A stretch of 64,000 nucleotides of DNA. Source: Herbidospora cretacea (lineage in GTDB: Bacteria > Actinomycetota > Actinomycetes > Streptosporangiales > Streptosporangiaceae). Positions within the stretch are counted from its first letter, which is position 1; every line of letters starts with the position of its first letter. Below, piece by piece: positions 211-3,497 of the stretch. The stretch lies in contig NZ_BBXG01000028.1 in assembly GCF_001570605.1 (NCBI RefSeq), positions 16,566-80,565 on the forward strand, in the 5' to 3' direction. A model generated the notes under the pieces. It was given only the letters and a program-made list of their open reading frames with translations, was not told the DNA's origin and made no database searches. A program made the position numbers and the translations under genes.

Positions 211-927
211 ATGATCACTGGGCTGGTGGGGCTGTGTGTCGGGCTGGCCGTGTGGGTGGCGTGGGGGCCCTCGGTTCCGGTTGTGCGGTTGGCGCAGCTG
301 ACGCGGACTGTTGGCCCGGGGTTCTCGCTGCCCGAATTGGTGAAGGCTCGGCGGTCGCGTGCGGGGCTGGTTCGGGCCTGGCGGGGTGGAACGGTCGAGT
401 TGTGTCAGGCGGTCGTGGCGGAGTTGGCGGCTGGGCGTACGTCCGGTGAGGCGCTGTCTCGGGCGATCAAGTCCGTTGAGGGGCCGCCGGAGTTGGTGGA
501 GGCGCTCCGGCCGGTTGCCCGGGTTGCCCGCGATGGAGGGGATGTCGCGGCGGCGCTGGTGGATGCGGCGCCCGCATCCGGCGGTGAGGGGTTGCGGCGG
601 CTGGCTTCCTGCTGGGAGGTCGGGGTGAGTGTGGGGGGCGGGCTCGCGCCGCTTGTGGAACGGGTGGGTGGGGCTCTGCGGGACATGGAGAACCATCGGC
701 AGGAGATCTCGGCGCAGCTTGCCGGGCCCCGGGCCACTGCCCGGATGCTGGCGGGGCTGCCGGTGCTGGGGCTGCTGATGGCGGCCGGGCTGGGGATGCA
801 GCCACTGCCGTTCCTCTTCACGACGCTGCCCGGGATCGGGTGCCTGGTCGTGGGGTTGCTGCTCAATGTGACGGGGCTGCGGTGGACGGACCGGATGGTG
901 CGGAAAGCGGAGGACAGCGTGCGGTGA
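211..927 (+). CDS. tadB: TadB-like type II secretion F family membrane protein
   Basis: This 238-residue protein looks like an inner-membrane platform protein of a Tad/Flp pilus machine. An N-terminal hydrophobic segment (residues about 1-19) is followed by a cytoplasmic T2SSF-type helical domain with the characteristic stretch ASCWEVGVSVGGGLAPLVER (about 130-150). Two closing membrane segments follow near residues 183-200 and 207-225. The ATG at 211 follows GAGGGG at a suitable distance. It is the first of two T2SSF genes in tandem, which in actinobacterial tad loci correspond to TadB and TadC. In the family these proteins anchor the ATPase and help extract pilin from the membrane. The family call is firm; the exact pilus function is inferred. 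Confidence 0.85.
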   Translation: MITGLVGLCVGLAVWVAWGPSVPVVRLAQLTRTVGPGFSLPELVKARRSRAGLVRAWRGGTVELCQAVVAELAAGRTSGEALSRAIKSVEGPPELVEALRPVARVARDGGDVAAALVDAAPASGGEGLRRLASCWEVGVSVGGGLAPLVERVGGALRDMENHRQEISAQLAGPRATARMLAGLPVLGLLMAAGLGMQPLPFLFTTLPGIGCLVVGLLLNVTGLRWTDRMVRKAEDSVR

Positions 928-943
928 CCGCCGGGAGGCCGCC

Positions 944-1720
944 TTGCTTGCGGCGACCCGCGTACGGAGTCGGCTTCTGAGGGAGAGCGTGGTGGTTGGG
1001 GTTCTTTCCGGGCTGTGCGTGACGCTTGCCGTTGTGTGCTGGCCGGTTCGGCGTAGTGCGGCCGATCGGCTGCGGGCGGTTGTCGCGCCTCCTGCGCCTC
1101 GGGTCGCCGTGACGGAGAATCCGGTCGGGCGGATGGCCATGGTCGCGGGGCCGGTGCTTGTGCTGGTGGTTCTCGTGGTCGGTGGGGTGGCCGGCGTCGT
1201 GATGGGCGTGGTGCTGGCTGGGCTTGTCGTCGCCTACTTCAGGCGGAAGGAGCCTCCGGAGGATCGGCGCCGCAAGGAACTCGTCCGGGCTGATCTGCCG
1301 TTCGCCGCGGATCTCGTCGCCGAGTGTCTGCGGGCTGGTCAGCCGCTCGTGGGGGCTGTCGAGATCGTCGCGCGGGTGGTGGACGGCCCGTTGGGGGAGC
1401 GGTTGCGGTGGGCGGGTGGGCAGATGCGGCTGGGCGCCGATCCTGTCGAGGTGTGGCGTGGGCTCGCCGCCGAGGAGTCCTTGGCCTTGCTGGCCCGGGC
1501 GATCGCGCGGGCGGTCGAGTCGGGGGCGCCTGTCGCCGATGTGCTGACTCGGGTCGCCGAGGACGCCCGCCAGGCCGGCCGAGCCGCTTCTTCGGCGGCT
1601 GCGCGGCGGGTCGGGGTGCAGGCGGTGGCGCCGCTTGGGCTGTGTTTCCTGCCGGCGTTCTGCTTCCTCGGGATCATCCCGGTGGTCGCGGGTCTGGCCG
1701 CCCAGGTTCTTGCGCCCTGA
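944..1720 (+). CDS. tadC: TadC-like type II secretion F family membrane protein
   Basis: This 258-residue protein is the second T2SSF-family membrane protein of the tad cluster. I chose the TTG at 944 because GGGAGG lies just upstream (933-938) and little room is left after tadB. Valine codons GTG a few residues in are possible alternatives. Hydrophobic segments lie near residues 16-32 and 64-95. A T2SSF helical domain follows with ADLVAECLRAGQPLVGAVE (about 122-140), and a C-terminal membrane hairpin is rich in Phe and Leu. It starts 16 bp after tadB, so the two are very likely one operon. A 366 bp gap with DnaA boxes separates it from the pilin-like genes. Confidence 0.85.
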   Translation: MLAATRVRSRLLRESVVVGVLSGLCVTLAVVCWPVRRSAADRLRAVVAPPAPRVAVTENPVGRMAMVAGPVLVLVVLVVGGVAGVVMGVVLAGLVVAYFRRKEPPEDRRRKELVRADLPFAADLVAECLRAGQPLVGAVEIVARVVDGPLGERLRWAGGQMRLGADPVEVWRGLAAEESLALLARAIARAVESGAPVADVLTRVAEDARQAGRAASSAAARRVGVQAVAPLGLCFLPAFCFLGIIPVVAGLAAQVLAP

Positions 1721-2086
1721 CATGGCATGGCAGCACGTGTTCTAGTCACGCACCGGCAACACCAGAGCCGACTCTGGCTCTCGGATGGCGTGGCGCGGAT
1801 CGGGCCTGCCATGATCTCCGCGCGAGATGTCGGAGGCGTGTTCGTGCTCGCGTCGGCATGTTCCCCAGTTCTGCACAGCCTGTGGACAGAAGTTGTCCAC
1901 AGGTGTGGATAACGCGATGCCTCTATGCGGGCTGTCGCTTTGAAACCCCCGTACAGCATGGGCTTTTGGGTTATCCACAGGCCATCGGTTATCCACAGCT
2001 AGGGCTCGGGGGCGGTGGAAAGGTCGTCCGGGTCGGCAGGGTGGCTGTGCCGGGGCGGAGGGTCCGGTCCGGTGACAGGAGGACGC
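1721..2086. other. Intergenic gap holding a DnaA-box cluster
   Basis: No convincing gene is seen in these 366 bp between tadC and the DUF4244 gene. The left half, to about 1870, has no recognisable signal. The right half contains five DnaA-box-like 9-mers (listed separately). The last 30 bp carry the AGGAGG ribosome binding site (2077-2082) of the next gene. Confidence 0.7.
1881..1997. promoter_or_regulatory. Cluster of five DnaA-box-like sites
   Basis: Read directly: TGTGGACAG at 1881-1889 (reverse of CTGTCCACA), TTGTCCACA at 1893-1901, TGTGGATAA at 1904-1912 (reverse of TTATCCACA), and TTATCCACA at 1971-1979 and 1989-1997. Three copies are the exact E. coli consensus TTATCCACA, and one is the exact TTGTCCACA form preferred by Streptomyces. 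The first two form a perfect 8 bp inverted repeat with a 5 bp spacer. There is no dnaA or dnaN gene here, so this is probably not oriC. A DnaA-titrating or regulatory site is the better guess. Confidence 0.75.
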
Positions 2087-2419
2087 GTGAACGTCAAGAC
2101 CAAAGGCATCTCGTGGACCAGGGCCGCCGCCTCCCTGACCGCCCCCGACACCATGGCAGTCCCGGACGATGCCACCGCCGACGCCAAGCGGGCTCGGGCC
2201 TCCGCCCGGTTGCGGGAGGCGGCCGCCCGGGCGGCTCGGGTGCTGGGCGAGCGGAACGGCGCCCTGCGGCCGGACGCCGGGATGTCGACCGCCGAATACG
2301 CCGTCGGCACGATCGCCGCCTGTGGCTTCGCCGGGCTGCTGTTCAAGGTGGTGACGTCGCCCGATGTTCAGCAGATGCTCGTCTCGCTCGTGCAGAAGGC
2401 GCTGGCGCTGGCCGGATGA
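2087..2419 (+). CDS. DUF4244 Flp-pilin-like protein
   Basis: A 110-residue protein begins at GTG 2087 after a perfect AGGAGG (2077-2082). An upstream in-frame extension to 2015 lacks a comparable ribosome binding site. The N-terminal two thirds are Ala/Arg-rich. The C-terminal 45 residues start with GMSTAEYAVGTIAACGFAG, a short motif followed by one hydrophobic helix ending at the C-terminus. This is the DUF4244 signature, which resembles a Flp-type prepilin with its G-x-S/T-x-x-E-Y processing region. It probably supplies the major pilin of the Tad machine encoded upstream. Its stop overlaps the next start (ATGA at 2416-2419). Confidence 0.85.
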   Translation: MNVKTKGISWTRAAASLTAPDTMAVPDDATADAKRARASARLREAAARAARVLGERNGALRPDAGMSTAEYAVGTIAACGFAGLLFKVVTSPDVQQMLVSLVQKALALAG

Positions 2420-2772
2420 TCCGGCGTGACCGTGGATCGGTCACGGCCGAGACGGCCGCGGCGCTGCCCGCGCTGGTGGTCGTTCTCGGGGCGGCCCTGT
2501 GGGCGGTGGCCGTGGTGGGAGCGCGGCTGGAGTGCGTCGACGCCGCTCGGGCCGGTGCGCGTGCGGCGGCGCGGGGAGACGCGGTTCCGGCCGTACGGGA
2601 AGGGGCTCTGGCGGTGGCGCCGGCCGGCGCTTCGGTCGACGTGACGGTGGGTGCGTCGCTCACGGAGGTGACGGTGCGGGCGCATGTTCGTCCGTCGTGG
2701 GCGGTGATGCTTCCCGGCGTGACGGTGTCCGCGTCGGCGACCTCGGCGACGGAGAAGGGCGTTCTGCCCTGA
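2416..2772 (+). CDS. TadE-family minor pilin-like protein
   Basis: A 118-residue protein starts at ATG 2416, overlapping the DUF4244 stop by 4 bp, so the two are probably translationally coupled. It opens with RRDRGSVTAETAAALPAL, a positively charged leader and a TadE-type motif (G-S-V-T-A-E), followed by a single hydrophobic helix to about residue 32. The rest is a small extracytoplasmic domain predicted to be rich in beta strands. TadE-like pseudopilins are processed minor components of Tad pili. Position and motif agree well; I cannot say whether a pilus is actually built by this organism. Confidence 0.85.
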   Translation: MIRRDRGSVTAETAAALPALVVVLGAALWAVAVVGARLECVDAARAGARAAARGDAVPAVREGALAVAPAGASVDVTVGASLTEVTVRAHVRPSWAVMLPGVTVSASATSATEKGVLP

Positions 2773-2803: not shown

Positions 2804-3193
2804 GTGGATGCGTGTGAGGGTCGAAGTGTCCGGGTGAGACGTGATCGGGGGTCGGCGACCGTGTGGGTCGTCGCGGCCATGGCCTTGGTGTGGGGGCTGG
2901 CTTATGTGTTCGTCCAGGTCGGAATGGCGAGAGTGGCCGTCCACGCGGCCCGTACCGCCGCCGACCTGGGCGCCCTGGCCGCGGCCGAGCTGGCCGTCGC
3001 GGCTCCGGGCGAGGCTTGTGAACAGGCGGCGGAAGTGGTCGCCGCCAACGACGCGCGGCTCACGTCGTGCGAGATCAAGGACGGGGTGTCCGAGGTGACC
3101 GCTTCGGTGGAGTTGCGGTTTCCGGGGCTGAGGCAACGCGAGGCCTCAGCGCAGGCCCGGGCGGGGCCGGTGTATCTGAACGCCGAGCGCTGA
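2804..3193 (+). CDS. Rv3654c-type TadE-like protein
   Basis: A 129-residue protein is given from GTG 2804; a GTG at 2834 just before RRDRGSATVW is an equally good start. After the basic stretch comes GSATVWVVAAMALVWGLAY, a single membrane helix of the same design as the preceding TadE protein. A region with HAARTAADLGALAAAELAV follows, typical of the helicase/secretion neighbourhood TadE-like family (Rv3654c in M. tuberculosis). Two cysteines near residues 73 and 88 could pair outside the cell. It is the last gene of the tad cluster before the repeat region. Confidence 0.8.
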   Translation: MDACEGRSVRVRRDRGSATVWVVAAMALVWGLAYVFVQVGMARVAVHAARTAADLGALAAAELAVAAPGEACEQAAEVVAANDARLTSCEIKDGVSEVTASVELRFPGLRQREASAQARAGPVYLNAER

Positions 3194-3227: not shown

Positions 3228-3489
3228 ACAGCACTACGACGCCCTGCCATGGGTCTCCAGAACTTCCACCCAGGTGCCTCTCAACGCTTCCGGCCGGGTT
3301 CGCCTGGTCCAGGTGGCGGATGCCGCGCAGCATGGCAGGGCAGTCGTAGTGCTGTCCGGCCGGGTTCGGCCTGGACCAGGTGGCGGATGCCGCGCAGCAT
3401 GGCAGGGCAGTCGTAGTGCTATCTGACCGGGTTCGCCTGGTCCAGGTGGCGGATGGCGCGCAGCATGGCAGGGCGTCGTGGTGCTGTCC
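3228..3489. repeat. Three 66 bp tandem repeats with an inverted partial copy
   Basis: Direct copies lie at about 3292-3357, 3358-3424 and 3425-3489. The anchor CATGGCAGGG recurs at 3331, 3398 and 3464, giving periods of 67 and 66 bp. Copies differ by a few substitutions and single-base indels. A partial copy in reverse orientation sits at 3228-3251 and pairs with the right half of the third copy over 24 bases with one mismatch. Read on the minus strand the unit is 22 codons without a stop (GQHYDCPAMLRGIRHLDQA...), but indels between copies break the frame. No spacer lies between copies. Confidence 0.85.
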
Positions 3490-3497
3490 GGCCGCTA

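Follow-up and report, generated by a model that had tools for sequence, protein, structure and literature searches.

The gap between tadC and the DUF4244 gene of a Tad pilus locus in Herbidospora carries a dense cluster of DnaA boxes, and boxes of the same type recur across the order at two places of the gene set comprising ssd, the tad genes, and the pilin genes. From sequence comparison, the boxes are real and conserved and probably functional, and we consider it fairly probable that DnaA controls the ssd-tad-pilin genes, so that the expression of the pilus and of a septum regulator would follow the DnaA level or the replication state.

The box cluster and its standing in the genome

A word scan of the window, meaning the whole 64-kb stretch of DNA analyzed here, found four exact TTRTCCACA boxes and one near-match within positions 1881-1997, and no exact box elsewhere in the window (Table 1). 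The boxes at 1893-1901 and 1904-1912, 2 bp apart, constitute an inverted repeat, and the start codon of the DUF4244 gene lies 90 bp downstream of the last box. The scan thus confirmed an earlier note on this DNA, which had described five boxes in 117 bp on both strands with one inverted repeat. The same note had seen no dnaA, dnaN, or parAB nearby, and this held as well, since the genome's own DnaA, its DnaN, and the ORFs beyond jag near oriC had no match in the window when used as tblastn queries; two of these ORFs resemble ParA and ParB by eye.

Table 1. Genes and candidate DnaA boxes around the tadC-DUF4244 gap, with positions counted in the window.
Feature	Position	Strand	Evidence and conservation
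tadB (T2SSF, PF00482)	211-927	+	Pfam match
tadC (T2SSF, PF00482), start codon approximate	992-1720	+	Pfam match
tadC-DUF4244 intergenic gap, 366 bp, containing the cluster	1721-2086	.	ORF positions
Weak DnaA box CTGTCCACA, one mismatch	1881-1889	-	Word scan; TGTGGA core in 7/7 aligned own-genus sequences
DnaA box TTGTCCACA	1893-1901	+	Word scan; TTRTCCACA in 7/7 aligned own-genus sequences
DnaA box TTATCCACA	1904-1912	-	Word scan; TGTGGATAA in 7/7 aligned own-genus sequences
DnaA box TTATCCACA	1971-1979	+	Own genus: TTATCCACA in 6/7, TTTTCCACA in 1/7
DnaA box TTATCCACA	1989-1997	+	Own genus: TTATCCACA in 2/7, TTTTCCACA in 5/7
DUF4244 (PF14029), small protein, first gene after the boxes	2087-2419	+	Pfam match
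TadE-like protein (PF07811)	2416-2772	+	E 2.1e-4, 21.8 bits, just below the curated cut-off of 22.9
TadE/G-like protein (Tad, PF13400)	2804-3193	+	24 bits, cut-off 22.3

The DUF4244 protein may be regarded as pilin-like. The GC content is 0.59 in 1801-2000, compared with about 0.70-0.77 in the flanking genes. A promoter scan of positions 1700-2120, which covered the sigma-70 type, returned no such promoter and gave a single terminator-like hit at 1948-1962. Downstream of the tad genes, a tandem array with a period of 67 and 3.1 copies occupies 3289-3494. Genes outside the window were called by a simple GC-based script, and the draft assembly contains undetermined bases, read as X, within tadA just before the window (at about 10520 of locus L120).

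Matches with one mismatch numbered 10 in the window against 6.87 expected, and 11 of 100 shuffles reached 10. Therefore, the one-mismatch total in the window is ordinary; what is not ordinary is the clustering and the presence of the four exact sites. The draft genome of 8,280,334 bases in 36 contigs contained 55 exact TTRTCCACA sites, compared with 16 for the reversed-word control. At the genome mean, the Poisson P of finding four exact sites in 117 bp is 1.5e-14, and multiplication by the genome length divided by 117 gives about 1e-9, a post hoc value for a stretch that was picked for its sites. When boxes were counted in 150-bp windows, five were found before dnaB, four at oriC, and four in the tadC-DUF4244 gap, and nowhere else were there at least three. 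The cluster is a real outlier, and it is not alone in the genome: uniqueness was rejected, oriC and the place before dnaB being equally dense. The earlier note had asked for this genome-wide count as a check, and its proposal was not refuted, as equally dense groups turned up at these two places only.

The densest group of the genome consists of five exact boxes upstream of dnaB (L119:4640-4779), a gene located about 40 kb from oriC. Exact boxes preceded dnaB in 28 of 30 loci, which were the 30 best matches of 61 genomes and are thus biased to close relatives. The box nearest to the aligned start of the dnaB query lay 108-125 bp before it in 19 of these 28 loci and 138-203 bp before it in the other 9. 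A single box precedes an ssb-like gene in the Herbidospora genome. The 9-mers of the cluster match the oriC boxes of the host, and the flanks of the pilus-locus boxes (g-TTRTCCACA-G) resemble those of 18 boxes from the oriC region and dnaB.

Several further observations were made during these scans. The DnaB product (L119:4847-7426) has LAGLIDADG/homing-endonuclease matches and therefore probably contains an intein. Two boxes at L132:6165-6205 are situated between an FtsK/SpoIIIE gene (Pfam; EccC-like by eye) and a second set of genes that appears tad-like by eye. Inverted box pairs with a 3-bp spacer occur elsewhere at C9:110213-110233, C20:63749-63769, and C2:601865-601885 of genome G000. 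Close direct box pairs are scarce in the order: each of 41 genomes had at most 10, and 6 of them had none. The reversed pattern gave no such pair in any of the 41.

Conservation of the boxes at two places of the gene set

The neighboring helicase had its best match among the named loci in Herbidospora solisilvae (95%), which places the host in Herbidospora or a close relative. DUF4244 is present in all seven genomes of the genus, including the one studied here. In the alignment of these seven sequences, the box columns had 97% identity versus 80% outside, and none of 399 circular shifts matched this value, with gap characters counted as a state. When only gap-free columns were used, the values were 97% and 83% (0 of 343 shifts), and the remaining intergenic columns stood at 85%, which makes the difference smaller. 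In each of the six other genomes of the genus, the 1 kb preceding DUF4244 contained exact boxes (18 sites, 12 of them in sense), two to four per locus.

In the order, DUF4244 was found in 197 of 200 genomes, and 41 loci from 36 other genera were chosen from the matches listed among them. In 31 of the 41 loci, an exact box was present in the 1 kb before the DUF4244 domain (47 sites, 42 in sense), a span that may take in the end of tadC; the other 10 loci had none. One box was found in 20 loci, two in 7, three in 3, and four in 1, and the commonest sense 9-mer of this pilin window was TTATCCACA, which occurred in 22 of the 41 loci. The reversed word gave no match at the DUF4244 and Ssd places and a single match over the full length of the 41 loci together, and the best of 199 shuffled words reached 3 loci. 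Altogether, the 41 loci contained 70 exact sites in 428 kb, 61 of which were at the DUF4244 and Ssd places, corresponding to a box density about 54 times that in the rest of the same loci. Both the place of the boxes and their orientation relative to the gene are conserved in the order. Downstream of the pilin boxes, a common GCA-N-GTG element was seen at 2 of 54 sites only.

The second box set lies outside the window, upstream of ssd, the gene with which the tad set begins. Of 28 loci of the order, 14 had an exact box in the 250 bp preceding the Ssd hit and 14 had none, and 4 of 5 own-genus loci had one; these distances take the tblastn hit as their reference point instead of a proven start codon. 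In the Herbidospora genome, a 6C RNA (RF01066) was detected upstream of the window at L120:8179-8254 on contig C28. The box starts at the next base, L120:8255, and lies 86 bp before the called ssd start. The 6C RNA was also detected in 13 of 14 further tad loci tested, where it ended 113-364 bp before the Ssd hit in 12 loci and 801 bp before it in one (L184).

The Streptomycetaceae have boxes at one of the two places. Among 42 loci of this family, 33 had a usable Ssd, and a sense exact box was located at most 450 bp before ssd in 22 of these; a looser box was found in 26, one of which (L088) matches elsewhere than the aligned array, and 7 had none. In 16 loci, the boxes formed a three-box array of [A/T]TATTCACA, NNNTCCACAG, and again TCCACA, in steps of about 18-20 bp. 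The tadC-DUF4244 gap, by contrast, contained no exact box in any of 36 Streptomycetaceae loci, so place and orientation are conserved before ssd in most of the family (26/33) and not at the DUF4244 gap. In 15 streptomycete loci, such as L100 and L109, the word TTRTCCACA (TTG in 14, TTA in 1) does follow the tadB stop at a distance of 10-27 bases, apparently in the frame of tadC, and may simply be coding. The earlier note had treated a lack of conservation in relatives with the same gene order as grounds for refutation. This test did not refute its proposal either: boxes were conserved in most of the sampled loci of the order, and 21 of the 23 named loci outside Streptomycetaceae that have both genes carry an exact box in the gap between them, but boxes were absent from the ten order loci and the 36 streptomycete gaps mentioned above.

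A class sample of 38 loci from 33 families, drawn from 148 genomes searched, was examined for the core TCCACAG. Among 32 Ssd windows, 21 had the core in sense and 3 in antisense, and among 38 pilin windows, 22 had it in sense and 1 in antisense; it occurred in at least one place in 30 of the 38 loci and in both places in 13 of 32. The 419 permuted words were found in a mean of 0.4 and 0.5 loci. One permuted word reached 22 loci versus 21 in the Ssd windows, namely GTCCACA, which represents the TCCACAG site shifted by one base, and the next best reached 4. The strict TTRTCCACA was rare in this sample (6/38 loci).

The boxes in the dnaA-dnaN gap of 27 genomes had this core as well, preceded by a loose triplet in which TTG (13/112), CCG, and TTA led, while the triplets before TCCACA at the tad sites of the class were led by TCG (16/74), CCG, and TTG. 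DnaN was found in 27 of 30 loci, and the 3 others, in which the stretch after dnaA was read, were excluded from this triplet tally; a first comparison with the triplets in 1.5 kb after dnaA, made before the restriction to the dnaA-dnaN gap, was noisy. Since the triplets are loose at oriC too, but TTG leads there versus TCG at tad, they do not decide between DnaA and another factor. The class tad sites resemble the oriC boxes of their lineages, though not exactly, a likeness that does not prove DnaA.

Weighing the possible explanations

Control by DnaA accounts best for these results. Five candidate boxes lie in what would be the promoter region of the pilin part (DUF4244-tadE-tadF), and together with the second set upstream of ssd they would make the ssd-tad-pilin unit a target of DnaA. 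The sites, their clustering, conservation, orientation, and position, as well as their likeness to the boxes of the oriC and dnaB regions, are direct observations; from them we infer DnaA binding, a promoter at this place, and an action of DnaA on transcription, which could have either sign. The earlier note had offered two readings of the cluster, and these fared differently. The best fit is a link between tad expression and replication, because the boxes lie at two places of one gene set, are mostly in sense, and are usually single. Pure titration of DnaA is weaker, because the position is conserved and the number is not. In addition to its main role, the dense Herbidospora cluster may serve to titrate DnaA.

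As the sole function, a DnaA reservoir is unlikely. According to this explanation, the cluster would serve to titrate DnaA or to promote ATP hydrolysis by DnaA in a datA-like manner, and its placement at tad would be incidental. The cluster ranks among the genome's three densest, and excerpts from reviews credit groups of DnaA boxes with restraining initiation in S. coelicolor and B. subtilis. Furthermore, DUF4244 was 72-534 kb from dnaB in 12 of 13 relatives with both on one contig, the 13th having a distance of 4.6 Mb. This proximity, together with the short distance between dnaB and oriC, indicates that the locus is probably replicated early; in the draft genome of the host, oriC and the tadC-DUF4244 gap are on different contigs. 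However, the number of boxes varies (n = 41, with one box in 20 loci, two to four in 11, and none in 10) while the position is kept, and the conserved box number and arrangement of a datA-like site were not found. In addition, boxes at two separate places of one gene set and a predominant sense orientation are features that a titration site does not need.

Somewhat less likely again is another tad-linked transcription factor recognizing TCCACAG-type sites that resemble DnaA boxes. The tad sites of the class often read TCGTCCACA or CCGTCCACA (25/74) instead of TTRTCCACA, and genome G318 has TTATCCACA twice at oriC and TCGTCCACA at tad. However, oriC and the region preceding dnaB carry this word too, with similar flanks, the class oriC boxes are also loose in their first three bases, and the stretch between ssd and tadF in the Herbidospora genome showed no regulator gene. 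Since boxes are present at replication genes and tad alike, a DnaA regulon fits better than a pilus-only factor. The empty streptomycete gaps and the different leading triplets at tad and oriC nevertheless make DnaA control slightly less likely, and the reservoir and the other factor slightly more so.

A signal acting at the RNA level in the mRNA leader, as the large share of sense sites (42/47) might suggest, is very unlikely, considering that two of the five sites are inverted, that one pair forms a palindrome (1893-1912) kept in all seven own-genus sequences, and that oriC is marked by the same word. Chance or compositional accident, with which the unremarkable one-mismatch total in the window would agree, was rejected as having virtually no probability, based on the genome-wide clustering (P about 1e-9, post hoc), the cross-genus conservation relative to shuffled words, and the column conservation above the local background.

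Relation to known systems and biological meaning

DnaA is a transcription factor in E. coli, B. subtilis, and Caulobacter. The present case is similar in that boxes lie upstream of genes, replication genes included, but differs in its target, which is a pilus gene set with ssd, beside a 6C RNA and class-wide. To our knowledge, little of the DnaA regulon beyond replication genes has been charted in actinobacteria. DnaA-box clusters outside oriC were reportedly described in Streptomyces coelicolor by Smulczyk-Krawczyszyn and coworkers in 2006. These clusters are likewise box groups away from oriC in a filamentous actinomycete, but their role, as far as the available excerpts report it, is the restraint of initiation, whereas the position observed here follows a gene set. 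The datA site of E. coli and the B. subtilis clusters are also DnaA-box clusters on the chromosome, going by similar excerpts, but the box number observed here is not conserved.

A link between the Tad pilus and the replication and SOS network has been proposed in silico for Dinoroseobacter shibae, in which CtrA and LexA sites were predicted at a tad gene (PMC6473078). That case, in the part of the source consulted, concerns other regulators in another phylum, with no DnaA boxes at tad. Among the matches listed in the open literature (titles and abstract starts), none reported DnaA boxes at the actinobacterial tad set. DnaA boxes outside oriC are a known kind, and what appears to be new is a widely recurring group with an unusual target, the pilus set.

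The 6C RNA sits upstream of ssd both here and in the 13 further loci, as a neighbor of the second box set and not within the window. An excerpt from a review describes interactions of this RNA with the dnaB and panD mRNAs in M. smegmatis. A reported partner of dnaB mRNA is thus placed beside DnaA boxes, and boxes precede dnaB too.

A wider reading, which we put forward tentatively and hold to be possible rather than probable, is that the ssd-tad-pilin unit beside the 6C RNA is under direct DnaA control via two fixed places throughout the class Actinomycetia, as an ancestral circuit alongside dnaB. Such a circuit would tie the pilus, perhaps with DNA uptake or attachment, and the septum regulator to replication. 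The boxes constitute a candidate DnaA target that recurs class-wide at the same two points of a single gene set, which makes a direct test easy. If DnaA control is true, the Tad pilus and Ssd would gain a link to the replication cycle.
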